Origin: an uncultured Bacteroidales bacterium
Lineage (GTDB): Bacteria; Bacteroidota; Bacteroidia; Bacteroidales; Paludibacteraceae
Reading direction: 5' to 3'
NCBI GenBank assembly: GCA_902799875.1
Contig: CADCCH010000032.1
Coordinates: 1 to 29,915 of the forward strand
Length of the DNA stretch: 29,915 nucleotides
In this document: one piece after another, positions 4,211 to 15,793 of the stretch
Layout: every line of letters begins with the position of its first letter
Numbering within the stretch: the stretch's first letter is position 1
The notes under the pieces: generated by a model
The model's database searches: none
What the model was told of the DNA's origin: nothing
What the model saw: the letters and a program-made list of their open reading frames with translations, nothing else
Translations under genes and position numbers: made by a program

Positions 4211-5565
4211 TTTGCGTACTCCTTATAAAATTCCGTAACGGCGATAATACCTTTTTCCCACACTTCGAGATCCATGGACTCGTTGGGAGAATGGATAGCG
4301 TTTTGTTCAAGACCAAAGCCCATGAGGATGGTTTTGCAACCGAGAATCTGCTCAAAAGCCGCGATGATAGGTATCGAACCGCCACGACGTGCAGCGAGAG
4401 GACGTTTGCCAAAGGCTACCTCAAAGCCCTTCTCTGCAGCCTTGTATGCCGGGATATCGATGGGGCAAACATAGCCCTGACCACCGTGCATCGGAGTAAC
4501 CTTTACACGAACGCCTTTGGGGGCAATAGAGGCGATGTAATCGATGAACGCCTGCGAGATCTTGGCATGGTCTTGGTTAGGTACCAGACGGCAAGAGACC
4601 TTCGCAAACGCTTTGGAAGGCAGGACTGTTTTGGAGCCTTCACCGGTGTAACCGCCCCAGATGCCGCAGACGTCAAACGAGGGACGACAGGAGTTGCGTT
4701 CGAGGGTCGAGTATCCCGCTTCTCCGAAGACCTCATCCACATCGATTGCTTTGTTGTATTTCTTCTGCGAGAAAGGAATTTGTGCTATCATCTCCCGCTC
4801 GGCTTGAGGGATAGGTAGCACATCATCATAAAATCCTGGTATTGTGATGCGTCCGTCTTTATCCACCACTTGCGAAAGCATCTCACAAAGGGCATTGATC
4901 GGGTTTTTGACAGCGCCACCGAAATGTCCGGAATGGAGGTCACGGTTCGGACCATCGACTTCGATTTGCCAGTAGGCAAGTCCGCGCAGTCCGGTCGTGA
5001 TAGAGGGCGTCTCTTTGCCGATCATCGAGGTGTCGCTCACCAAGATAATATCCGCTTTGAGCAGTTCTTTGTGGTCTTCGAGGAAAGCCTCGAGACTCGG
5101 CGAACCGATCTCTTCTTCGCCCTCAAAGATGAACTTGACGTTGCATGCCATCAGCCCTTCGTGCACCAGGTACTCAAAGGCCTTGGCCTGAATCATCGCC
5201 TGACCTTTGTCATCATCGGCACCACGGGCATACAGACGTCCGTCGCGGATATCCGGCTCCCAAGGGTTGGATTGCCACAAATCCAACGGCTCCACCGGCA
5301 TCACGTCGTAATGCGCATACACCAGCACGGTAGGCGCCTGAGTCTTGACTCTGTATTCTCCGTAAACAAAGGGATTGCCGGCAGAAGGAAGGACTTCGGC
5401 TTTCTGGCAGCCGGCTTCTAACAGCAGTTCTTTCCAGCGCTCGGCACAACGGAGCATATCGCTTTTGTGCTCTGCCTGACAACTGACACTCGGGATACGA
5501 ATGAGACTCGCCCACTCCTCCATGAACCGCGCTTTATGCGCCTCGATGTAGTTCTGTATCGTCAT
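4207..5565 (-). CDS. M20 family dipeptidase
   Basis: A 452-residue zinc metallopeptidase of the M20 family that probably hydrolyses dipeptides or similar small peptides. No signal peptide is visible, so it should be cytoplasmic. Metal and catalytic residues are readable: H85 and D87 (AHYDVMP), the bridging Asp117 (ARGADDDKGQ), the Glu pair at 150-152 (FEGEEEIGS), Asp178 (LVSDTS) and the C-terminal histidine in NAIHSPNES. The dimerisation domain follows the GPNRDLHSGHFGG segment. I start it at 5565 (MTIQNYIEAHKARF) rather than at an in-frame start 51 bp upstream, because the promoter -7 box lies at 5586-5593. It is the first gene of a two-gene operon with the DUF2520 protein. Confidence 0.93.
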   Translation of the reverse strand: MTIQNYIEAHKARFMEEWASLIRIPSVSCQAEHKSDMLRCAERWKELLLEAGCQKAEVLPSAGNPFVYGEYRVKTQAPTVLVYAHYDVMPVEPLDLWQSNPWEPDIRDGRLYARGADDDKGQAMIQAKAFEYLVHEGLMACNVKFIFEGEEEIGSPSLEAFLEDHKELLKADIILVSDTSMIGKETPSITTGLRGLAYWQIEVDGPNRDLHSGHFGGAVKNPINALCEMLSQVVDKDGRITIPGFYDDVLPIPQAEREMIAQIPFSQKKYNKAIDVDEVFGEAGYSTLERNSCRPSFDVCGIWGGYTGEGSKTVLPSKAFAKVSCRLVPNQDHAKISQAFIDYIASIAPKGVRVKVTPMHGGQGYVCPIDIPAYKAAEKGFEVAFGKRPLAARRGGSIPIIAAFEQILGCKTILMGFGLEQNAIHSPNESMDLEVWEKGIIAVTEFYKEYAK

Positions 5566-6857: not shown

Positions 6858-6888
6858 TTGCATATTTGAAAAATTTGTAGTAATTTTG
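6858..6888 (+). promoter_or_regulatory. Promoter of lptD
   Basis: A TTG at 6858-6860, 20 bp, then TAATTTTG at 6881-6888, followed by CGCCC. An in-frame TTG at 6886 lies inside the -7 box and so cannot be the translation start. Confidence 0.8.
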
Positions 6889-6912: not shown

Positions 6913-9735
6913 GTGCGTATACGTGTACGTGGACATATAATTGCAGCGATTTTGATGCTCGCCGGAATAGCGGCGAGAGCAGAACAACCGGTAGATTCTC
7001 TATCGGCAGATACGGCTTTTGTTGACACGGCTCGGATCGATACGGCACGCATAGACACGGTACAGTTGCAAGAGCCGCAGCCAAAGAAAAAGAGTGCATT
7101 GACGGCACCTGTTCATTATCAGTCGAGTGATTCGATGATTATGATGGCGAACGGTACGGCGTATCTGCATGGTAAGGGTGAGTTGCATTTCGAGAAGATG
7201 GAGCTGACGGCTGACTACGTGCGGATGAACATGGACTCGAGTCAGATCTACGCCCGTGGCGTTTATGACAGTCTGGAGTACGAATGGAAGGGCAAGCCGG
7301 TCTTTAAGGACGGAAAGGACGAGTACCAGACAAATGAGATCACGTACAACCTCAAGACGCAAAAAGGTTATATCCGGCATGTAGTGACCCAGCAAGGCGA
7401 GGGATATATCATTGCCGACAAGACGAAGAAAGTGGGAGGTACGGAGATGATGATGGCCGGTGGACAGTACACGACCTGCGACAATCACGATCACCCGCAC
7501 TTTTACCTCAAGATGACCAAAGCGAAGGTCAAACCCGGCGATTACATCGCTGCCGGTCCTTCATACATGGTGGTGGGTGACGTGCCGTTGCCTTTAGCGA
7601 TCCCGTTCGGATTCTTCCCCTTCACGAGTTCGTACTCGAGCGGTATCATTATGCCGACGTTCGGTGACGACTACAGCCGGGGTCTGTATCTGAGTAATTT
7701 CGGATACTATTTTGCGCTCTGCGATTATCTGGATTTGGAAGCAACGGGAGATATCTACTCACGTGGCACGTGGGCCGTGCGTGCGAAGAGTAAATATGTC
7801 TGGCGGTATCATTTCTCGGGTAACATCAGCATCAACTACCGTAACGATGTGACGAGTGAGAAAGGTATGCCTGACTATGCGTCGCGTAGGAACTTCAGTG
7901 TCCAATGGTCGCATAACCAGGACTCGAAAGCCAACCCGTACAGTACGTTCTCGGCGAGTGTGAACTTCGCGACGAGTGGTTACAACCGCAGTAACATCAA
8001 CAGTTACTACAACCCGAACCTCTATTCGGAGAACACGAAGAGCAGTACGATCAGTTACACACAGCGTTTCCCGGACAGTCCGTGGAATATGAGTATGTCC
8101 GCCAGTATCACGCAGCGTACGAGTGACTCGACGATATCGATCACGGCACCGCAGTTGACGGTGAACATGAACAGTATCTATCCGTTCAAGTTATGGAGAC
8201 AGGCGACCCTCAAGCGCAAAGGCAAAGTGGGCGGTAAGGAGAAATGGTTCGAGAAGATCAAGATGAGTTACGCGATGAACGGTAAGATCGTGAACCGCGG
8301 AAACATGAAAGAGAGTGAGTTCCTCAAATCGGATTTCCTCAAAGACTGGACGACCGGTATGAGTCACAGTGTACCGATCAATGCCAGCTTTGTGCTGTTC
8401 AAGTACCTGACGGTGACGCCGAGTATCAACATGCGTGACAGGATGTATTTCATGCGCACGAACACGACCTGGAACGACGATCTGCAGCAAGTAGAACGGG
8501 ACACTACGACGGGATTCTATAACGTGTTTGATTTTGACGCCGGCATCAGTATGGAGACCAAGATATACGGATTCTACACACCGCTCAAGAAACTGTTCCC
8601 GAACGGCAAAGTGGAGAAATTCCGTCATGTATTCACGCCGCGTATCAGTATGACCTATCATCCGGACTTCGGTAAGGACAGTTGGGGTTATTATAACAAC
8701 TACGACGAGCCGGTATATTCGGGTACGGACAGTATCACGGGGCGTAAGATACAGAAAGTGGATGAGAACGGTAATCCGGTGACGATGAGTCGTCAGGTGT
8801 CGCGTTTCCAGAACGCACCGTACGGTAACGCGCCCGGCGGAGGTATGTCCGCCACTTTGAACTTCGGTCTGGACCAGAACCTGGAGATGAAGATGTTCAA
8901 CAAGAACGACACGACAGGCAAGAACCCTTATAAAGTAGTGAGTATCATCGATAAGTTCGGTGTGACCGGGGCATATAACTTTGCCGCCGACTCGATGAAC
9001 TGGAGTAATTTCCAGGTTAACCTGCGTTTGAAATTCCCGTTCCTGAACAACTACAGTTTGAACCTCAACACCCAGTTGGATCCGTACATGTACGAGTTGG
9101 ATGCCTACGGCAAACCGCACCGCACCAACAAGCAGTACTGGCACAACGGTAAGTTCCCGCACTGGAACGGTCTGAGGTGGAACTTCAGTTATACCTTCTC
9201 GGACGCGACAATCCGCAAATGGAAGAACAAGTTAGAAGGCAAGAAGGTCAAGGAGGAAGAAACCTCAGAGATGGAGGCGATAGAGAAGAACGAGGAAGGC
9301 ATGGAGACGAACGCCAAGCCGGAAAAGAAGAAGGCCGAGGAGGTGGATGACGGATATATCAAGACGGATATCCCGTGGAGTCTGTCGCTCAGTTACTCGC
9401 TCTCCTATGCTCCGGGCAGTACGTTTGATTACGAAAAGATGTACTACAAAATGCGACTGTCTCATTACCTGACCTTGAGTGGAAATATCGGACTCGGTCA
9501 GGGATGGAAAGTGAGCGGAAACATGACGTATAACTTCGATACCAAGCAAGTGACATCGTGTACATTCAACGTCAGTCGAGACCTGCACTGCTGGAACATG
9601 ACAGCCAGTATCAACCCGATCGGACCGTTCAAGAGTTATACCTTCCATATCGGTATCAACGCTTCGATCCTGGCCGACCTCAAATACGATAAAAACAGTA
9701 ACCAGTCCACAAACGGACGTGTAAATTGGTGGTAG
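6913..9735 (+). CDS. lptD: LPS-assembly outer-membrane protein LptD
   Basis: Outer-membrane beta-barrel of the Lpt machine that inserts lipopolysaccharide into the outer leaflet. The 940-residue length fits the Bacteroidota form. The start is set at GTG 6913: the frame is open further upstream, but the TTG at 6886 lies inside the promoter, and the GTG gives a good signal peptide (MRIRVRGHIIAAILMLAG, cut after ARA). A short linker with DTARI repeats follows. An OstA-like periplasmic domain covers ~65-190 (SSDSMIMMANGTAYLHGKGE, then YADYVRM-type strands; here ELTADYVRMN). The LptD signature region GDVPLPLAIPFGFFPF lies near 223-238, followed by a long barrel. A charged Lys/Glu-rich insertion near 780-815 is probably an exposed loop. 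It heads lptD-slyD-der. Confidence 0.92.
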   Translation: MRIRVRGHIIAAILMLAGIAARAEQPVDSLSADTAFVDTARIDTARIDTVQLQEPQPKKKSALTAPVHYQSSDSMIMMANGTAYLHGKGELHFEKMELTADYVRMNMDSSQIYARGVYDSLEYEWKGKPVFKDGKDEYQTNEITYNLKTQKGYIRHVVTQQGEGYIIADKTKKVGGTEMMMAGGQYTTCDNHDHPHFYLKMTKAKVKPGDYIAAGPSYMVVGDVPLPLAIPFGFFPFTSSYSSGIIMPTFGDDYSRGLYLSNFGYYFALCDYLDLEATGDIYSRGTWAVRAKSKYVWRYHFSGNISINYRNDVTSEKGMPDYASRRNFSVQWSHNQDSKANPYSTFSASVNFATSGYNRSNINSYYNPNLYSENTKSSTISYTQRFPDSPWNMSMSASITQRTSDSTISITAPQLTVNMNSIYPFKLWRQATLKRKGKVGGKEKWFEKIKMSYAMNGKIVNRGNMKESEFLKSDFLKDWTTGMSHSVPINASFVLFKYLTVTPSINMRDRMYFMRTNTTWNDDLQQVERDTTTGFYNVFDFDAGISMETKIYGFYTPLKKLFPNGKVEKFRHVFTPRISMTYHPDFGKDSWGYYNNYDEPVYSGTDSITGRKIQKVDENGNPVTMSRQVSRFQNAPYGNAPGGGMSATLNFGLDQNLEMKMFNKNDTTGKNPYKVVSIIDKFGVTGAYNFAADSMNWSNFQVNLRLKFPFLNNYSLNLNTQLDPYMYELDAYGKPHRTNKQYWHNGKFPHWNGLRWNFSYTFSDATIRKWKNKLEGKKVKEEETSEMEAIEKNEEGMETNAKPEKKKAEEVDDGYIKTDIPWSLSLSYSLSYAPGSTFDYEKMYYKMRLSHYLTLSGNIGLGQGWKVSGNMTYNFDTKQVTSCTFNVSRDLHCWNMTASINPIGPFKSYTFHIGINASILADLKYDKNSNQSTNGRVNWW

Positions 9736-9754
9736 GCGGCGATTGCTCGGTGTA

Positions 9755-9832
9755 GTACTCATCGAGACAACTCGCCCCATGCTCGACGACTCTCGCGTTC
9801 CCCATCCGCTCGAGACGGTCCCGATTGAGTAC
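9755..9832 (+). repeat. Structured repeat element, copy A
   Basis: A 78-base element bounded by GTACTCA and TGAGTAC lies 19 nt after the lptD stop and ends 2 nt before the slyD ATG. Its arms pair (TCGAGAC with GTCCCGA, one mismatch, one bulge) below an inner TCTCG/CGAGA stem. Its 76-base core matches copy B at 67 positions, and the 41-base stretch from TGCTCGACGACTCTCGCG onward is identical. Two differing arm positions are compensatory pairs. It is not a family I recognise. Confidence 0.85.
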
Positions 9833-9834
9833 CA

Positions 9835-10392
9835 ATGATACAAAATTTAAAAGTAGTAAAAGCCACGTACGAGTTGTATATCAACGGCGAAGGTGGTAAA
9901 GAAGAGTTAATGGAACAAGCGACGGAAACCACACCGCTCGTTTGGTGCCAAGGTGAAGGAATGATGCTCCCTGCTTTCGAGGCACAAATGGCCGGAAAGG
10001 AAGAGGGTGACAGCTTTGATTTTGTGCTCAAGGCCGAAGAGGCGTACGGCGAGTATATTCAGGAGGGACTGATGGATTTGCCGAAGAAGATGTTCTTCAA
10101 CGGCGACGGTGAGTTTGACGAGGAACGCGTGTATGTCGGTGCGATTGTGCCGATGAACACGGTCGATGGTCAGATCGTCAAGGCACAGGTCTGCGAGATC
10201 ACGGATGACCAGGTGACAATCGATCTCAACCACCCGTACGCCGGAGAGGATCTGCATTTCAAAGGCAAGATCCTGGAGATCCGCGATGTGACGGAAGGAG
10301 AGCTCAAAGCAATCAGAAACCCGCACGGTTGCGGCAAGTGTCACGGCAAATGTGACGATTGCGAAAGCGAGTGCGGAAATTGTAAACAATAA
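9835..10392 (+). CDS. slyD: FKBP-type peptidyl-prolyl isomerase, SlyD-like
   Basis: A 185-residue cytoplasmic prolyl isomerase and folding helper. The FKBP core is split by an insert-in-flap chaperone domain at about residues 72-128. The SlyD signature [11 protein letters not shown] lies at 130-140. The tail carries six cysteines (166, 169, 173, 176, 180, 183) with two histidines, as in SlyD proteins that bind nickel or other metals. The ATG lies 2 nt after repeat element A and no promoter is visible in the 99-bp gap, so it is probably expressed by read-through from lptD, with the hairpin at its ribosome entry region. der follows 14 nt downstream. Confidence 0.9.
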
Positions 10393-10406
10393 AAAATATT
10401 AGATCT

Positions 10407-11723
10407 ATGGCGAATATTGTGGCTATAGTGGGTCGTCCCAACGTTGGGAAATCGACTCTGTTTAACCGCTTGACGGGCACTCGTCGGGCGATAGTGATGA
10501 ACACGGCGGGAACGACGCGTGACCGGCAGTACGGTAAGGCCGAATGGTGCGGACGTGAGTTCTCGGTCATTGATACCGGTGGTTGGGTCGTTAACTCGGA
10601 CGATACGTTTGAGTCCGAGATCAACCGCCAGGTGGATCTGGCGATCCGTGAGGCGGATGTTGTGATGCTGGTGGTGGACGTGAACGAAGGTGTGACGCAG
10701 TTCGATATGGAAGTGGCACATCTCCTGCGTCAGGCGAAGAAACCGACTATCCTCTGCGTGAATAAAGTGGATACGTTTGAGAACCAATACGGTGCGGCGG
10801 AGTTCTACAAACTCGGACTCGGCGAGCCGTTTATCCTGTCCGCCGAGAACGGACTCGGCACGGGCGACCTGCTGGACGAAGTGGTGAGTCGTTTCCGCAA
10901 GGAAGATAACAGCGACGAAGAACTGGAAGAACTGCCGCGTTTTGCGATTGTAGGTCGTCCGAATGCCGGTAAATCGAGTATTCTGAATGCGTTTATCGGT
11001 GAGGAGCGTACGATTGTGACGGACATCCCGGGTACGACGCGTGACAGTATTTATACAAGATATAACAAGTTCGGCAAGGACTTTTATCTCGTGGATACAG
11101 CGGGTATCCGTAAGAAAGCGAAAGTGACGGAAGACCAGGAGTATTACTCGGTCGTTCGTTCGATTCGTGCGATCGAGAATTCGGACGTTTGTATCCTGAT
11201 GATCGACGCCACACGCGGTATCGAGGCACAGGACCTGAATATCTACTCGCTGATTCAGAAGAACAAGAAAGGTCTGGTCGTTTGTATCAACAAATGGGAC
11301 CTCATCGAGAGTAAGACCAATCAGGACATCAAGGCCTACGAGGCAGCGATTCGTGAGCGTATTGCTCCCTTCACGGACTTCCCGATCATCTTCACGAGTG
11401 CGCTGACCAAACAGCGTATCTTCAAGGTGGTGGAGACGGCGATCCATGTGTATGAGAACAAGAACAAAAAGATCCCGACCGCGCAGCTGAATGAGAAGTT
11501 CCTGCCGCTGATCGAGAATTACCCGCCCCCTGCATGGAAAGGCAAATACATCAAGATCAAATACTGTACGCAGTTGCCGAACACCCAGATTCCGACTTTT
11601 GTGTTCTTTGCCAACCTGCCGCAGTACGTGAAGGAGCCGTATCGTCGTTTCCTGGAGAACAAGTTACGCGAATGGTGGGATTTTGAAGGCACACCGGTGC
11701 AACTGTTTATAAGGGCTAAATAA
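10407..11723 (+). CDS. der: Ribosome biogenesis GTPase Der (EngA)
   Basis: Essential double GTPase that helps assemble the 50S ribosomal subunit. At 438 residues it is the usual length. The first G domain has GRPNVGKS at 9-16, DTGGW and NKVD. The second has GRPNAGKS at 183-190, DTAGIRKK and NKWD. The C-terminal KH-like domain ([18 protein letters not shown]) follows. The start codon lies 14 nt after the slyD stop in an A/T-rich leader typical of Bacteroidota. Repeat element B begins 11 nt after its stop, and a separate promoter drives the next gene, so der is the likely end of the lptD operon. Confidence 0.97.
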
Positions 11724-11733
11724 TTACTAGTTC

Positions 11734-11824
11734 GCATATACTACTCATCGGAGTAACTCGCCCCCTGCTCGACGACTCTCGCGTTCCCCATCCGCTCGAG
11801 AGGCCTCCGATTGAGTATATATGC
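11734..11824 (+). repeat. Structured repeat element, copy B
   Basis: The second copy of the element at 9755-9832 lies 11 nt after the der stop. The outer arms are longer here. GCATATA (11734-11740) pairs perfectly with TATATGC (11818-11824), then TACTCA with TGAGTA and TCGGAG with CTCCGA, with single-base bulges at 11741 and 11811. The inner stem is CTCTCG/CGAGAG. No T-run follows, so it is not a standard intrinsic terminator. Confidence 0.85.
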
Positions 11825-11863
11825 TCACAATTTTTAAGAAAAAGAGTACAATTTGCATTTTTA

Positions 11864-11915: not shown

Positions 11916-12446
11916 ATGAAGATCATAGGCTTTGTATATCACAACGGAAGTACGGAAATGGTGCTCAAAGGAGACAGTTGTCTGCTCAACGGTCGCAAGC
12001 CTTTCTTTATGCCTGATTGGACGAACGAAGTGGGTGTAACCGATTGTATCATTTTGCGTGTGAGTCGTTTGGGTAAAGAGATATCGCCTAAGTTTGCACA
12101 TCGTTACTACGACGCCCTCACGCCGGGTGCGGATTTCATAGCGCTGGACGTTGCCCGTGAGGCACAACAAGCCGGTAAACCCTGGACAAAAGCTATAGCA
12201 TTCGACTATTCGCTGGCAATTGGTGAATGGATTAACAATGATGAAATGAGCGCAGCAGAGCTGCTCAATGATGAATTGATTATTTCGCCCGAAGAAGCGA
12301 TTGCGCAAGCCAGTAAGGTGATGACTATTCGGCAGGGAGACCTCATCTATATCCAAGTTAAGCAGGCCCCGCGGCGTGTAGAGAAAGAAGAAATTATTCG
12401 CGTCGAGATAAACGGCGAAGAAAAATTATATTGTAAGATTAAATGA
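11916..12446 (+). CDS. Degenerate fumarylacetoacetate hydrolase (FAH)-fold protein
   Basis: A 176-residue relative of the FAH superfamily, shorter than the ~200 residues of intact members I recall from Bacteroidota. The fold signature FAHRYYDALTPGADF is clear at 60-74, retaining Asp73. The metal-ligand motif, usually YETExVVRI, reads VTDCIILRV at 41-49. The usual KGFDGS is IAFDYS at 94-99, and the usual GDLLYTGTP is GDLIYIQVK at 141-149. The active site therefore looks lost, and a structural or binding role is more likely than catalysis. It overlaps porU by four bases (ATGA). From memory, a FAH-family gene also precedes porU in Porphyromonas gingivalis. A two-codon frame (ATG GGG TAA, 11907-11915) directly abuts its start. 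Confidence 0.75.
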   Translation: MKIIGFVYHNGSTEMVLKGDSCLLNGRKPFFMPDWTNEVGVTDCIILRVSRLGKEISPKFAHRYYDALTPGADFIALDVAREAQQAGKPWTKAIAFDYSLAIGEWINNDEMSAAELLNDELIISPEEAIAQASKVMTIRQGDLIYIQVKQAPRRVEKEEIIRVEINGEEKLYCKIK

Positions 12447-15400
12447 AAAAAATACGGTCCATACTCTTGTTGATAGCGCTCGGCTTCTTTTTGGGAGCGA
12501 GTGCACACACCTATACGAACCAATCGGTTTTGGCGAACGGTAAATGGGTGAAGATCAGCGTGACTAGCAGCGGTATCTGTCGCATGTCTTTCGATGAGAT
12601 TCGTGCGGCAGGGTTAGAGCCGACGCAGTTGCGCGTGTTCGGATACGGTGGTGGACAGTTGAATTCGGATTTCAGTAAACGAAAGATAGACGACCTGCCG
12701 CAAGTGCCGGTATATGTCGGTTCAGACTTCGTGCTGTTCTACGTACAGGGTCCGATCAGTTGGGCGTATAACGGTAGTCGTTTTGTGCATACTAAAAACA
12801 CCTATTCGGATAAGGGTTACTACCTGCTGAGCGATAATGCGGGCAGTTTGCTGGCACCCACGACCGGTGAGGCGGTTAGCGGAACGACGCAAGAAGTAAC
12901 GACCTATCTGCAGTTACAAGTACACGATAAAGACTCCGTTAACCTGGTGGATCGCAACGGTATTGTCGGTGGCGGTAAGACCTTCTACGGAGAGCAGTTC
13001 GGTGTAGGTCATCGCCGTACGTTCAGTTTCACAACGCCGAATGCCGTAACGAGTAGCAGCAGTTCGGTGTTCATCGATCTGGCAGCGAATGCCACCACCA
13101 CCTCTACGTTCACCGCCAAACTGAACGGTTCCGGCAGTCAATCGGTATCGTTCACTCCCCCTGCCGCTTCGGATTATTATACCAAAGGTGTAGGAGGTAG
13201 CATCTCCATGAGCGGCACAAGCAAGAGTGGTCAACAGCAGATTCAACTGTCTTTCAGTAACGCAGAGAGCTCGAGTGCCCTCGGTTGGCTCAATTATATC
13301 GAGATCAGTACTCCTTCTACGCTCCGTATGACAGGCGATTGGATGGAGATCCGCACCAACGAAGGAATCGCCTCGTCCAATACCTTGCGCTATCATCTGC
13401 AGAACGCCAACAGCAACATACAAATCTGGGATGTCACCGATCTCTCGGCTATCCGTCGGATGCCGGCTACGCTGAACGGGAGTGAGTTGACTTGGACCGG
13501 CTCTAACTTGAGCGGAGCGCGCACGTATGTGGCTGTCAAAATCAACGGTTCGTCGTACGTGAGTGCGAAAGCGGAAGGGGCAGTGAGCAACCAGAATTTG
13601 CACGCCTTGCGTAATATTGACTATGTCATCATCTGTCCCGAAGGACTGGAGGCAGAGTCGCGACGTTTGGCACAAGCACACGAAGCCAAACAGTCCATCA
13701 CATGGGCCGTGGTAACGGATAAGCAGGTATATAATGAGTTCTCTTCGGGTACCCCGGATGCATGCGCTTACCGGTGGTTGATGAAGATGCTATATGACCG
13801 TGCCAATAACGGAGACGGACAGAAACCGCGGTGGTTGTTGTTGATGGGACACGGTTCGTTTGACAACCGGGGATTATTACCTAACTCCGGTAACAAGATG
13901 CTGTTGACCTATCAGTCGGACAACTCGCTCAATGAGGTGAAGGCGTACGCGAGTGATGATTTTTTCGGTTGGTTAGACGACAACGAAGGCACCAATGATG
14001 TATCGGCCAAGATGGATATCGGAGTCGGACGTCTGCCGGTAGAGAGTGCAGAGGACGCAACGAAAGTGGTGGATAAGATTATCGCCTATATGCAGAACAC
14101 CGAGCCGGGTAAATGGAAGAACCAACTGGCTTACCTGGCAGACGACGGTGATCACGGAGACCATACGCGTACGGCCGAAGGAAGTGCCGAACTGGTGCGG
14201 CTCCAGAATCCGGATTTCGTAGTGCATAAGGTCTATCTGGATGCGTATCCGCAGGAGGTGAATGCGAGTGGAGAGAGTTATCCGCTGGCCAAGAACAAGA
14301 TACAGAACTTACTCAAGAACGGTGTGTTCTTTTTCGACTACTCCGGTCACGGCGGTTACAACGGTGTGACGAGTGAACAGGTACTGAGTCTGAAGGATAT
14401 CGAGAAGATGAATAACAAGAACCTGGCTTTTTGGTTGTTTGTTACCTGTAACTTTGCCCAGTATGACGGTGGTCGTCGTTGTGCGGCAGAGGTGGCGGTT
14501 ATGAACCCCAACGGAGGTGCAGTCGGTGTATTGGCAGCGACCCGTACGGTCTATGCCGAGCAGAACACCAAACTGAACCGTGCCGTATCACGAGAACTGT
14601 TCAAACATGAAGATTCTTTCCATTACGAGGCTACACTTGGTGAAGCCCTGATGAACGGTAAGAACGCCCTCAATAACGATGATAACAAGATGGCGTACGT
14701 GCTCTTGGGTGACCCGGCCCTGCGACTCAACTACCCCACCGACTATTGGGTGAAGACCACCACGCAGATGGATACGCTCAATGCACTCAGTGTACAGCAG
14801 GTACAGGGACAGATCATTGACGAGGACAGTACGGTGGTGAGCGATTTCAACGGAACGGTGGATATCACCGTGTATGACAAGTTGCAGGTCATCGTGACGC
14901 GCGACAATGACGACACGAGCGGTGAACCGAATGAGATACCGTACAACGACTATCCCAATACGATCTTCAGCGGTTCGACGCAGGTGAAGAACGGACAGTT
15001 CAGTTACACCTTTATGGTACCTAAGGATATCCGGTATAATTTCGGTAACGGACGTATCGTGTATTATGCGCACGACGACGAGTTCAACGAGGATGCGGTC
15101 GGGCATTTTGAGGACTTTGTAGTAGGCGGTACAGGCTCGATTGTAGCTGCCGATACGGCAGGACCGGAAATGACCATCTACCTCAATAATATTGCGTTCA
15201 AGAACGGCGATAAGACCTATCCTACCCCGCGGTTCTATGCAGACTTGTACGACGTACACGGCATCAACACAGCCGGCGCGGGTATCGGTCATGACCTACT
15301 GTTAGTGGTCGATAACGATCCCAAGCAGACCTATACGCTCAATGAGTATTTCACCTCGGAGCAAGACAGCTACCAAGCAGGACAGGTCAATTACCTGATG

Positions 15401-15793
15401 CCGGAGATGGCAAACGGTGCGCATAGTCTGCGTTTCCGTGCGTGGGACTTGATGAACAACAGTACGACGCAGACACTCAACTTTATTGTAGAGTCCGGAC
15501 TCGATCCTTCTATCTACTCCGTTACCACGTATCCTAACCCGGTACAGGAGACGGGTATCCTGAATCTCGTTGTCAACTATGACCAGCCGGATGAGCTGAT
15601 ATACACCGAGTTGTATATCTCCAACCTCAACGGACAGGTGCTTTATACACATACGCAAAACAACCCGGATCGCATGTCCGTCAACCTGGCGGAGATGAGT
15701 CTGCAACCGGGTATCTATATGTATACCGTACGAATCAAAACCGAAAGCAGTAAATACAGTACTTCTTCGGGTAAAATCATTGTTACCAAATAG
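12443..15793 (+). CDS. porU: Type IX secretion system sortase PorU
   Basis: Surface peptidase of the gingipain (C25) family. It removes the C-terminal sorting domain of type IX cargo and attaches the cargo to anionic LPS. The product has 1116 residues with a signal peptide (MKKIRSILLLIALGFFLGASA). Catalytic His636 (DYSGHGG) and Cys669 (FVTCNFAQYD) are 33 residues apart, the same spacing as H657 and C690 of P. gingivalis PorU (from memory). Further gingipain-like motifs include LLMGHGSFDNRG and LLGDPALRL. The last ~85 residues (TYPNPVQETG, ending KIIVTK) form a type IX-style C-terminal domain, which PorU itself keeps. It overlaps the FAH-like gene by four bases and precedes its partner porV. 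Confidence 0.95.
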   Translation: MKKIRSILLLIALGFFLGASAHTYTNQSVLANGKWVKISVTSSGICRMSFDEIRAAGLEPTQLRVFGYGGGQLNSDFSKRKIDDLPQVPVYVGSDFVLFYVQGPISWAYNGSRFVHTKNTYSDKGYYLLSDNAGSLLAPTTGEAVSGTTQEVTTYLQLQVHDKDSVNLVDRNGIVGGGKTFYGEQFGVGHRRTFSFTTPNAVTSSSSSVFIDLAANATTTSTFTAKLNGSGSQSVSFTPPAASDYYTKGVGGSISMSGTSKSGQQQIQLSFSNAESSSALGWLNYIEISTPSTLRMTGDWMEIRTNEGIASSNTLRYHLQNANSNIQIWDVTDLSAIRRMPATLNGSELTWTGSNLSGARTYVAVKINGSSYVSAKAEGAVSNQNLHALRNIDYVIICPEGLEAESRRLAQAHEAKQSITWAVVTDKQVYNEFSSGTPDACAYRWLMKMLYDRANNGDGQKPRWLLLMGHGSFDNRGLLPNSGNKMLLTYQSDNSLNEVKAYASDDFFGWLDDNEGTNDVSAKMDIGVGRLPVESAEDATKVVDKIIAYMQNTEPGKWKNQLAYLADDGDHGDHTRTAEGSAELVRLQNPDFVVHKVYLDAYPQEVNASGESYPLAKNKIQNLLKNGVFFFDYSGHGGYNGVTSEQVLSLKDIEKMNNKNLAFWLFVTCNFAQYDGGRRCAAEVAVMNPNGGAVGVLAATRTVYAEQNTKLNRAVSRELFKHEDSFHYEATLGEALMNGKNALNNDDNKMAYVLLGDPALRLNYPTDYWVKTTTQMDTLNALSVQQVQGQIIDEDSTVVSDFNGTVDITVYDKLQVIVTRDNDDTSGEPNEIPYNDYPNTIFSGSTQVKNGQFSYTFMVPKDIRYNFGNGRIVYYAHDDEFNEDAVGHFEDFVVGGTGSIVAADTAGPEMTIYLNNIAFKNGDKTYPTPRFYADLYDVHGINTAGAGIGHDLLLVVDNDPKQTYTLNEYFTSEQDSYQAGQVNYLMPEMANGAHSLRFRAWDLMNNSTTQTLNFIVESGLDPSIYSVTTYPNPVQETGILNLVVNYDQPDELIYTELYISNLNGQVLYTHTQNNPDRMSVNLAEMSLQPGIYMYTVRIKTESSKYSTSSGKIIVTK

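Follow-up and report, generated by a model that had tools for sequence, protein, structure and literature searches.

A probable new family of modular palindromic repeats behind stop codons in uncultured Bacteroidales

What is a foldable sequence that stands twice in one Bacteroidales contig, each time just behind a stop codon? We asked this of two copies, here called A and B, in a 29,915-nt stretch of an uncultured Bacteroidales bacterium (contig CADCCH010000032.1 of assembly GCA_902799875.1; hereafter the window, meaning the whole stretch). Both belong to a dispersed, lineage-restricted repeat family. The answer we find probable is that this is a new family of modular palindromic repeats of the REP (repetitive extragenic palindromic), ERIC and BOX kind, that is, non-autonomous mobile DNA that forms a hairpin in intercistronic mRNA. 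The literature searched held no description of this repeat; the family is called new on that literature, with the nearest known repeats compared by description. A preliminary description of the same DNA had proposed a REP-like or BIME-like (bacterial interspersed mosaic element) repeat, a 3'-end RNA motif or a small non-autonomous mobile element. Our best answer lies among these candidates, with a dedicated RNA motif the less favoured of them.

Two copies in the window and their relatives

The presence of two matching copies is real and not a chance similarity. A repeat scan of the window returned a 99-nt direct repeat of 81% identity, its copies 1986 bases apart, and the core 22-mer (up to 3 mismatches) occurs twice, compared to a shuffle expectation of 0.00. 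As first counted, 67 of 76 core positions (9756-9831) are identical. The identical stretch is shorter than the 41 bases originally given, the longest run being 36 bases (9780-9815), and the claim that all differences but one fall in the arms holds for seven of the nine, the others lying at a junction (9816) and in a loop (9779). Two of the arm changes are, as read from the alignment, true pair swaps (G-C to A-T and A-T to G-C), as had been proposed. A and B are the only matches in the window to a covariance model of the family, and both belong to the 16-sequence training set of the model that gives the scores below.

9745..9841, + strand: element A, full copy with core type I, in the lptD-FKBP gap (85.9 bits, E 1.3e-23)
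11730..11828, + strand: element B, full copy with core type I, foot GTTCG/CTCAC intact (106.2 bits, E 9.7e-30)

Relatives were found well beyond the window (G numbers denote genomes and L numbers loci). Among 84,980 species genomes searched, the exact core 21-mer occurs at five loci, all of them in metagenome-assembled genomes (MAGs) of uncultured Bacteroidales. The five loci come from four genomes, and in these copy B, used as a query, had 22 matches at E <=1, the weakest of them short. The covariance model, built from 16 copies, detected 43 copies in seven genomes: 13 in G001, 8 in G002, 3 in G003, 7 in G004, 8 in G025, 1 in G130 and 3 in G138. Since the training copies were found via a type-I core, other core types are under-sampled. 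Copies outside the training set score down to E 5.7e-26 in other genomes.

Wider searches used stricter filters and covered samples only, so their counts are lower bounds. In a genus sample centred on G003, 18 of 61 genomes matched (17 of the 60 others), compared to 4 of 150 in a family sample and 2 of 393 (G001 and G025) in an order sample. The samples centred on G001 and on G003 list the same 60 other genomes, which places both in one genus. In the genomes searched, the repeat was seen only in this genus-level group and in some related members of the same family. The exact 21-mer had no match in viral contigs, and copy B had none in a phage collection. A single 29-base match of copy A in a plasmid collection (Natronosalvus, E 0.02) was taken as chance. 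Rfam 15 gave 0 matches in the window at the gathering score and nothing over A or B up to E 10; over ten fetched loci, Rfam identified one tRNA only.

The analyses below rest on 87 copies (45 + 42). Of the 67 matches outside G003 in the genus search, 40 regions with 42 matches were taken, and contig-end matches and many weaker ones were omitted. Some copies are orthologous between G001 and G004, and hence not independent. Several copies lie at or near the ends of MAG contigs, so the repeats may matter for assembly.

Fold, modules and paired changes

The element has one long arm that ends in two hairpins. The loop of the left hairpin is of the GCCCC type, that of the right one is CCC(C). The distance from foot to foot is about 93-101 nt in most copies, and some forms carry an extra outer stem. 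The long arm has one extra base on its 3' side, and the tip of one copy (L080) differs from the usual two-hairpin tip. The parts of A and B, all on the + strand, are as follows.

9756..9768, + strand: long arm of A, 5' side, paired with 9818-9831 (pair counts over 16 and 86 distinct copies)
9771..9785, + strand: left hairpin of A, GCCCC in the loop (alignment)
9790..9814, + strand: right hairpin of A, CCCC in the loop, stem with a TC/TC tandem mismatch or a 2-base bulge
9818..9831, + strand: long arm of A, 3' side, with one extra base (alignment, pair counts over 16 copies)
11730..11740, + strand: foot GTTCG and outer stem of B, 5' side, paired with 11818-11828; TC faces TC at the foot
11742..11754, + strand: inner arm of B, 5' side, paired with 11804-11817 (extra base 11811)
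11757..11771, + strand: left hairpin of B, loop GCCCCC (alignment)
11776..11800, + strand: right hairpin of B (alignment, consensus fold)
11804..11828, + strand: 3' side of B, comprising inner arm, outer stem and foot CTCAC (alignment, pair counts over 16 copies)

The outer stem and foot are intact in B, while the 3' foot of A is degenerate and overlaps the FKBP start codon (9835). The second foot pair (columns 2/102) is CG in 8, UA in 7 and another combination in 1 of the 16 training copies, and T-A in B. The RNA fold of B is much more stable than expected on the top (z -4.15) and bottom (z -4.14) strands, with 0 of 200 shuffles equally stable. For A, the top strand folds like its shuffles (z -0.16) and the bottom strand reaches z -2.43. 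There is no T run directly 3' of the foot at A or B.

Covariation across the family is strong. In the 16-copy alignment, 19 of 32 pairs have changes on both sides compared to 10.2 in shuffles, and there are 54 double-change cells compared to 16.4 expected. The covariation score is 0.301, with 0.135 for shuffles and at most 0.110 when the partners are slid. Using pattern rules of our own, we sorted the 87 copies into three core classes, I (GGAGTAACTCGCCCC..), II (GGGGTACCGGCCCC..) and III or other (e.g. CAAAAAACGTACTGCCCCGTAC..), and into three foot classes, GYTCR...YTCRC (45/87), GATAGC (21/87) and other (21/87). Every core class was found on every foot class. By eye, the GCCCC-type left loop is present across core types I, II and III, and copies with the GATAGC foot carry a further outer stem.

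The right hairpin of type I can be drawn in two registers. RNAalifold, applied to the 16-copy alignment, predicts 21 pairs with a two-base bulge in this hairpin and no TC/TC tandem. We favour the TC/TC register because L095 and L096 are fully paired there, and because columns 49/73 swap between C-G (51) and G-C (25) among 86 copies, in an alignment fitted to that structure, as are all the 86-copy pair counts. The RNAalifold bulge weakens the argument from the TC/TC tandem. Swaps from G-C to A-T in L090 and L133 support the pair of columns 54 and 68, which is common to both registers. The preliminary description had suggested two mutually exclusive inner pairings and hence two folds. CTCGA/TCGAG is absent from the consensus fold. 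TCTCG/CGAGA is kept in part, with columns 50-53 facing 71-74 followed by a 2-base bulge, whereas its last G has another partner (column 54 with column 68). The pair counts do not support a switch between the two folds, which would be possible for core type I.

Two other ideas about the structure were dropped. By eye, the motif needed for a hammerhead-like minus strand lacks conservation. Stem-only mini-copies did not hold up as a class, with 1 match for TC/TC feet, 1 for GA/GA feet and none for any of four further foot variants in 1.38 Mb (both strands of the fetched loci, counted together).

The paired changes themselves have an unusual character. Arm changes are mostly full Watson-Crick swaps, with few G·U or G·T intermediates. 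In arm columns that were picked after the 86-copy pair counts had been viewed, we counted 766 Watson-Crick pairs, with 2 top-strand and 6 bottom-strand G·T pairs. Over all 32 pairs the figures are 2324, 29 and 46. These counts come from an alignment fitted to the structure of the model and are somewhat biased by a model search that prefers paired copies. In a tRNA control (the 30 best-scoring loci of G001, G003, G025, G159 and G191, 27 of them distinct), G·U made up 38 of 574 pairs. Wobble is therefore rarer than in tRNAs on either strand (Fisher P at most 6e-8, all columns), a scarcity not usual in conserved RNAs. Joint change of the two arms at the DNA level would account for it, in the manner of quasipalindrome template switching as outlined in passages of PMC8604942, PMC3820800 and PMC7202029.

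A second pattern concerns the strand that folds. At three helix places, TC/TC alternates with Watson-Crick pairs, in 12, 31 and 24 TC/TC cases (67 in total, in our register), and TC/TC is also seen by eye at the GYTCR foot. Over all columns of the top strand there are 236 T·C or C·T oppositions and 13 G·A or A·G. The bottom-strand equivalent of TC/TC is a tandem G·A, mostly of the form 5'-YGAR-3' (by eye). Tandem G·A pairs of this form are stable in DNA and RNA. The tandems thus hint that the bottom strand is the folded one.

Gene ends, turnover and neighbouring repeats

Both copies in the window follow a gene read in the same direction. The neighbouring genes are listed here.

6955..9735, + strand: lptD-like gene (LptD_2, PF19838), upstream of A; the longest open reading frame starts at 6886
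9835..10392, + strand: FKBP-type peptidyl-prolyl isomerase gene (PF00254), between A and B
10407..11723, + strand: der/engA GTPase gene (MMR_HSR1 twice, KH_dom-like), upstream of B
11916..12446, + strand: gene for an FAA-hydrolase-like protein (protein-domain scan), downstream of B

The earlier claim that the copies stand just after stop codons is correct; measured from the feet as the family defines them, the distances are 9 nt (lptD) and 6 nt (der) instead of 11-19 nt. Between B and the FAA-hydrolase-like gene lies TTTGC...TACCTTTGC, which we take to be a Bacteroidales-type promoter. Directly downstream, at 12443-15793, is a large protein of the C25 (gingipain-type) peptidase family (PF01364), possibly a PorU-like secretion component.

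Placement is similar across the family (gene calls were made with a simple codon-score method of our own). Both neighbours are co-directional in 68 of 87 copies, and among these 58 copies are sense and 10 antisense (P 2e-9 for a 1:1 expectation; P 2e-4 if a strand bias of 65% is assumed). In the class with GYTCR feet the ratio is 36 to 3, or 31 to 3 when G004, whose copies are partly orthologous to those of G001, is dropped. The upstream stop codon falls between -30 and +12 nt from the 5' foot in 38 of 87 copies, compared to 0 of 87 at the mirror position. Overall, 52 of 87 copies lie within 60 nt of the stop of a co-oriented upstream gene or overlap it, the other 35 being elsewhere or at the ends of the fetched stretches. 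In copies with short gaps on both sides, the one on the 5' side is the smaller in 37 of 40 (median 4.5 compared to 29 nt). Co-oriented downstream starts are at least 13 nt away in 42 of the 49 listed, so the asymmetry may in part reflect protection of the next gene's leader. Copy A, with its degenerate 3' foot, is an exception to this free leader.

The element can also reach into the coding sequence. It supplies part or all of the stop codon in some copies (L068, L095, L096 and L097), and a DHFR gene (L066, L077) and a gene with the same 3' end (L140) extend 24 nt into it. The scanned neighbour genes are ordinary and unrelated in function; they include LptD, FKBP, Der, ThyA, DHFR and a peptide-release-factor gene, as well as BipA, trigger factor, a MoxR-type ATPase, acetate kinase and LptF/G. 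Taken together, there are many copies elsewhere, the pairing is kept and the sites are mostly gene ends, all in keeping with the expectations set out beforehand.

Close genomes differ in which gaps are occupied. G001 and G004 share mostly 92-98% identity in the longer aligned blocks of five locus pairs. We aligned six of their gaps, selected for being different, and at five of the six the element is present in one genome only. In the OmpA-ThyA gap, G001 has an element and G004 a short palindrome. In the lptD-FKBP gap, G001 has a type II copy, whereas the structured DNA of G004 is of another kind and resembles part of L168. Behind the release-factor gene both genomes carry an element whose outer arms are identical (38 and 25 bases) and whose tips differ (L080:5392-5512 compared to L067:5848-5944). 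At the site of copy B, G004 retains a 27-nt stem-only remnant and G001 has nothing. By eye, half elements adjoin whole ones in L068, L072, L135, L170 and L171, with partial sequence matches in addition for L068 and L072, and elements seem to be nested in the remains of others.

Some sites are persistent. In three further gaps a whole copy is common to G001 and G004. Between FKBP and der, an element is present in G001, G004, G025 and G130 but not in the window, and in L157 (G159) an element stands behind a gene whose 3' end is similar. By eye, three or more pairs have changed on both sides between the G025 and G130 copies. Such persistence speaks for some usefulness of the element, or else for a recent exchange.

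Other repeats were noticed in these genomes. Where G001 has an element, G004 has two other structured stretches (L079:6402-6534 and L078:6157-6290) that resemble stretches of L168 (79% over 86 nt) and L082 (79% over 75 nt), so these sites are probably shared with further dispersed families. A short dispersed intergenic repeat is built around a CCCTCCCTAAAGGGAGGG palindrome (L071:6856-6930, L169, L152, L069 and L146; also L075, L078, L091, L076 and L081). L082 has three copies of a 92-nt repeat (5035-5126, 5099-5190 and 7546-7637) with a CCCCCTTCAGGGGG palindrome and a second hairpin, which reads CTCGC...GCGAG in one copy, and L025 contains a similar stretch, CTCGCACAATGATGTGCGAG. In an element-rich stretch of G191, a 148-nt unit is repeated three times (L162:3970-4495). 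After der, a TTTTTTAAGAAAAAGTGTAC-like stretch (window 11829-11855; L068, L079, L083 and L090) is found in five genomes with or without the element; it may be the der terminator or belong to the promoter region that follows. Finally, a small protein of about 125 aa, with a SAGIDSVSGAL-like start in several copies, recurs a few kb from elements in G002, G004 and G025 (L096:355-741, L088:6267-6638, L085:6048-6428, L082:4512-4895 and L089:8456-8647). The four copies scanned had no Pfam match.

Weighing the readings and comparison with known systems

We favour a repeat that moves as DNA over a dedicated RNA motif because G·U pairs are rare, elements appear nested, their presence is patchy, and feet and cores are exchanged. 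Such an element would spread as DNA, with its folded single strand as the substrate of an enzyme acting in trans. Its two arms would be homogenised by a template-switch or hairpin-copy process. Within an operon, it would form an mRNA hairpin a few nucleotides behind the stop codon that could slow termination or affect transcript stability, and the A-rich leader on its 3' side would presumably serve the next gene. The sense orientation and the close association with stop codons leave room for an effect at the mRNA level. A mild effect on translation of the upstream gene is plausible because REPs near stop codons in E. coli lower translation, a statement that PMC12306157 makes for REPs less than 16 nt from the stop, citing earlier work.

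Several observations weigh against this reading. The shared copies of G001 and G004 differ at only 1/94, 0/99 and 2/98 positions, below an assumed 4% for their surroundings (Poisson P 0.003), and this low divergence, together with the sense bias, also fits selection for an mRNA function. Further pair types in the alignment number 26 compared to 29.6 in shuffles, and 488 of 500 shuffles reach the observed value. Copies are few, at 1-13 per bearing genome. The bottom strand is the more stable one in 79/86 (RNA) and 71/86 (DNA) copies, but shuffles show a larger mean strand difference (-6.96 compared to -5.81 for RNA, -2.08 compared to -1.28 for DNA), so the corrected values give it no special stability and lean slightly to the top strand. 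No target-site duplication could be read in the compared gaps, which differ over their whole length. Y1 transposases are the enzymes of REP elements. A Y1 transposase was found in 6/16 element-bearing and 7/16 element-free genomes and in none of the element-rich G001, G002, G004, G159, G184 and G191, and an element stands beside 0 of 18 Y1 loci (about 3 kb each; 11/18 above the Pfam cut-off). An integron integrase above the curated TIGR02249 cut-off was found in 0/16 genomes; the matches below the cut-off, seen in 16/16 genomes, were taken for ordinary tyrosine recombinases. It should be noted that these genomes are incomplete MAGs, in which the absence of a gene carries little weight.

The strongest competitor is a cis-acting RNA of the mRNA top strand, selected for termination control, processing or stabilisation and moving only incidentally. 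We consider it possible, with a chance well short of that of mobile DNA. The 58 sense copies among 68, the 38 stop-proximal copies against 0 at the mirror position, and the almost unchanged shared copies of G001 and G004 all suit an RNA, as does the FKBP-der element kept in G025 and G130 with its pairs changed on both sides. Down-regulation of translation by stop-proximal REPs of E. coli (PMC12306157) is a possible precedent. However, G·U is rarer on either strand than in tRNAs, the scanned neighbours have no common function, and the same gaps in relatives are often empty or hold other repeats. Two type-III copies of G025 (L087 and L089) lie antisense between co-directional genes, and the short 5' gap may owe something to protection of the downstream leader.

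We think it unlikely that the element is an atypical REP moved by a RAYT (REP-associated tyrosine transposase, or TnpA-REP), of the kind in Bacteroidetes subclass 2.6. Parts of PMC6006769 describe Bacteroidetes tnpA-REP genes that have atypical secondary structures on their flanks, structures also present at other places of the genome, and the stop codon supplied by the element in L068, L095, L096 and L097 is reminiscent of GTAG REPs, which, in a passage of PMC3733652, often provide the TAG stop of flanking ORFs (open reading frames). The absence of Y1_Tnp from six element-rich genomes and of elements from all 18 Y1 loci argues against such a partner, with the caution that MAGs are incomplete.

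A new mechanism is similarly improbable in our view. Here the repeat would be a mobile element that seeks stop codons, whose enzyme recognises a folded bottom strand in which tandem G·A pairs (5'-YGAR-3' opposite 5'-YGAR-3') replace Watson-Crick pairs at several positions. The element and its A-rich leader would be placed in gene sense behind stops, so that operons would be invaded and genes left unbroken, and feet and cores would be exchangeable modules.

Integron attC sites follow an ORF in the same orientation and form an imperfect hairpin with unpaired bases. Sites of this kind, folding as the bottom strand with one per gene as in integron cassettes, are a very doubtful match. The place and orientation relative to the ORF agree, and the 67 top-strand TC/TC cases that alternate with Watson-Crick pairs correspond to bottom-strand G·A tandems, G·A being rare on the top strand (13 compared to 236). 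Against this, no integron integrase reached the cut-off in 16 genomes, RNAalifold places a bulge at one TC/TC place, and folding energies show no bottom-strand preference. Gene order is conserved in the compared loci while elements come and go, and we therefore reject cassette-like gene movement. Finally, chance similarity or ordinary terminators can practically be set aside: hairpins after stops are generally common and the top strand of A folds like shuffles, but shuffles gave 0.00 matches, covariation is strong, copies elsewhere reach E 5.7e-26 and no T run follows A or B.

The repeats shape intergenic space in a group of uncultured rumen Bacteroidales, since they fill stop-proximal gaps of housekeeping operons, differ in occupancy between close genomes and seem to be nested in one another. 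They can serve to study how small palindromic DNA spreads while leaving genes intact and why palindrome arms change jointly with few G·U intermediates. They also bear on how often covariation, the usual sign of a functional RNA, arises at the DNA level.

Among known systems, the likeness to REP/BIME repeats and their RAYTs lies in dispersed extragenic palindromes near stops, sometimes providing the stop, in a foot joined to a hairpin, and in a plausible single-stranded DNA route. The unit here is about 100 nt with two inner hairpins, whereas REPs measure 20-40 bp where PMC3733652 mentions their size. The feet are GYTCR/YTCRC, GATAGC or other, with no GTAG or CGTC tag and no linked Y1 transposase; the subclass 2.6 structures were compared by description only. 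Integron attC sites share the place and orientation after the ORF, but AAC/GTT boxes are not seen by eye and gene order is conserved. ERIC/IRU and related enterobacterial RU elements, given as 103-168 bp in a section of PMC2759123, are likewise intergenic repeats of about 100 nt in co-transcribed positions, and part of PMC3049150 mentions a proposal that ERIC triggers transcript cleavage in one orientation. They belong to another lineage and were set apart by description, without an ERIC alignment; here feet and cores are exchanged. The pneumococcal BOX, RUP and SPRITE repeats are, in the same part of PMC3049150, structured, dispersed and thought to be mobilised in trans, with BOX modular and co-transcription possible. 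Our family resembles them in structure and dispersal and BOX in modularity, but no tandem central module was seen and the sense bias behind stops is strong. The BrickBuilt MITEs (miniature inverted-repeat transposable elements) of Porphyromonas gingivalis, as sketched in a portion of PMC5771137 and compared by description only, are also intergenic, repeated and non-coding and also come from Bacteroidales. With the REP, ERIC and BOX type of repeat, the family has in common that it occupies multiple unrelated loci, lies outside genes near their ends, keeps its fold by compensating changes and is gained or lost between close genomes.

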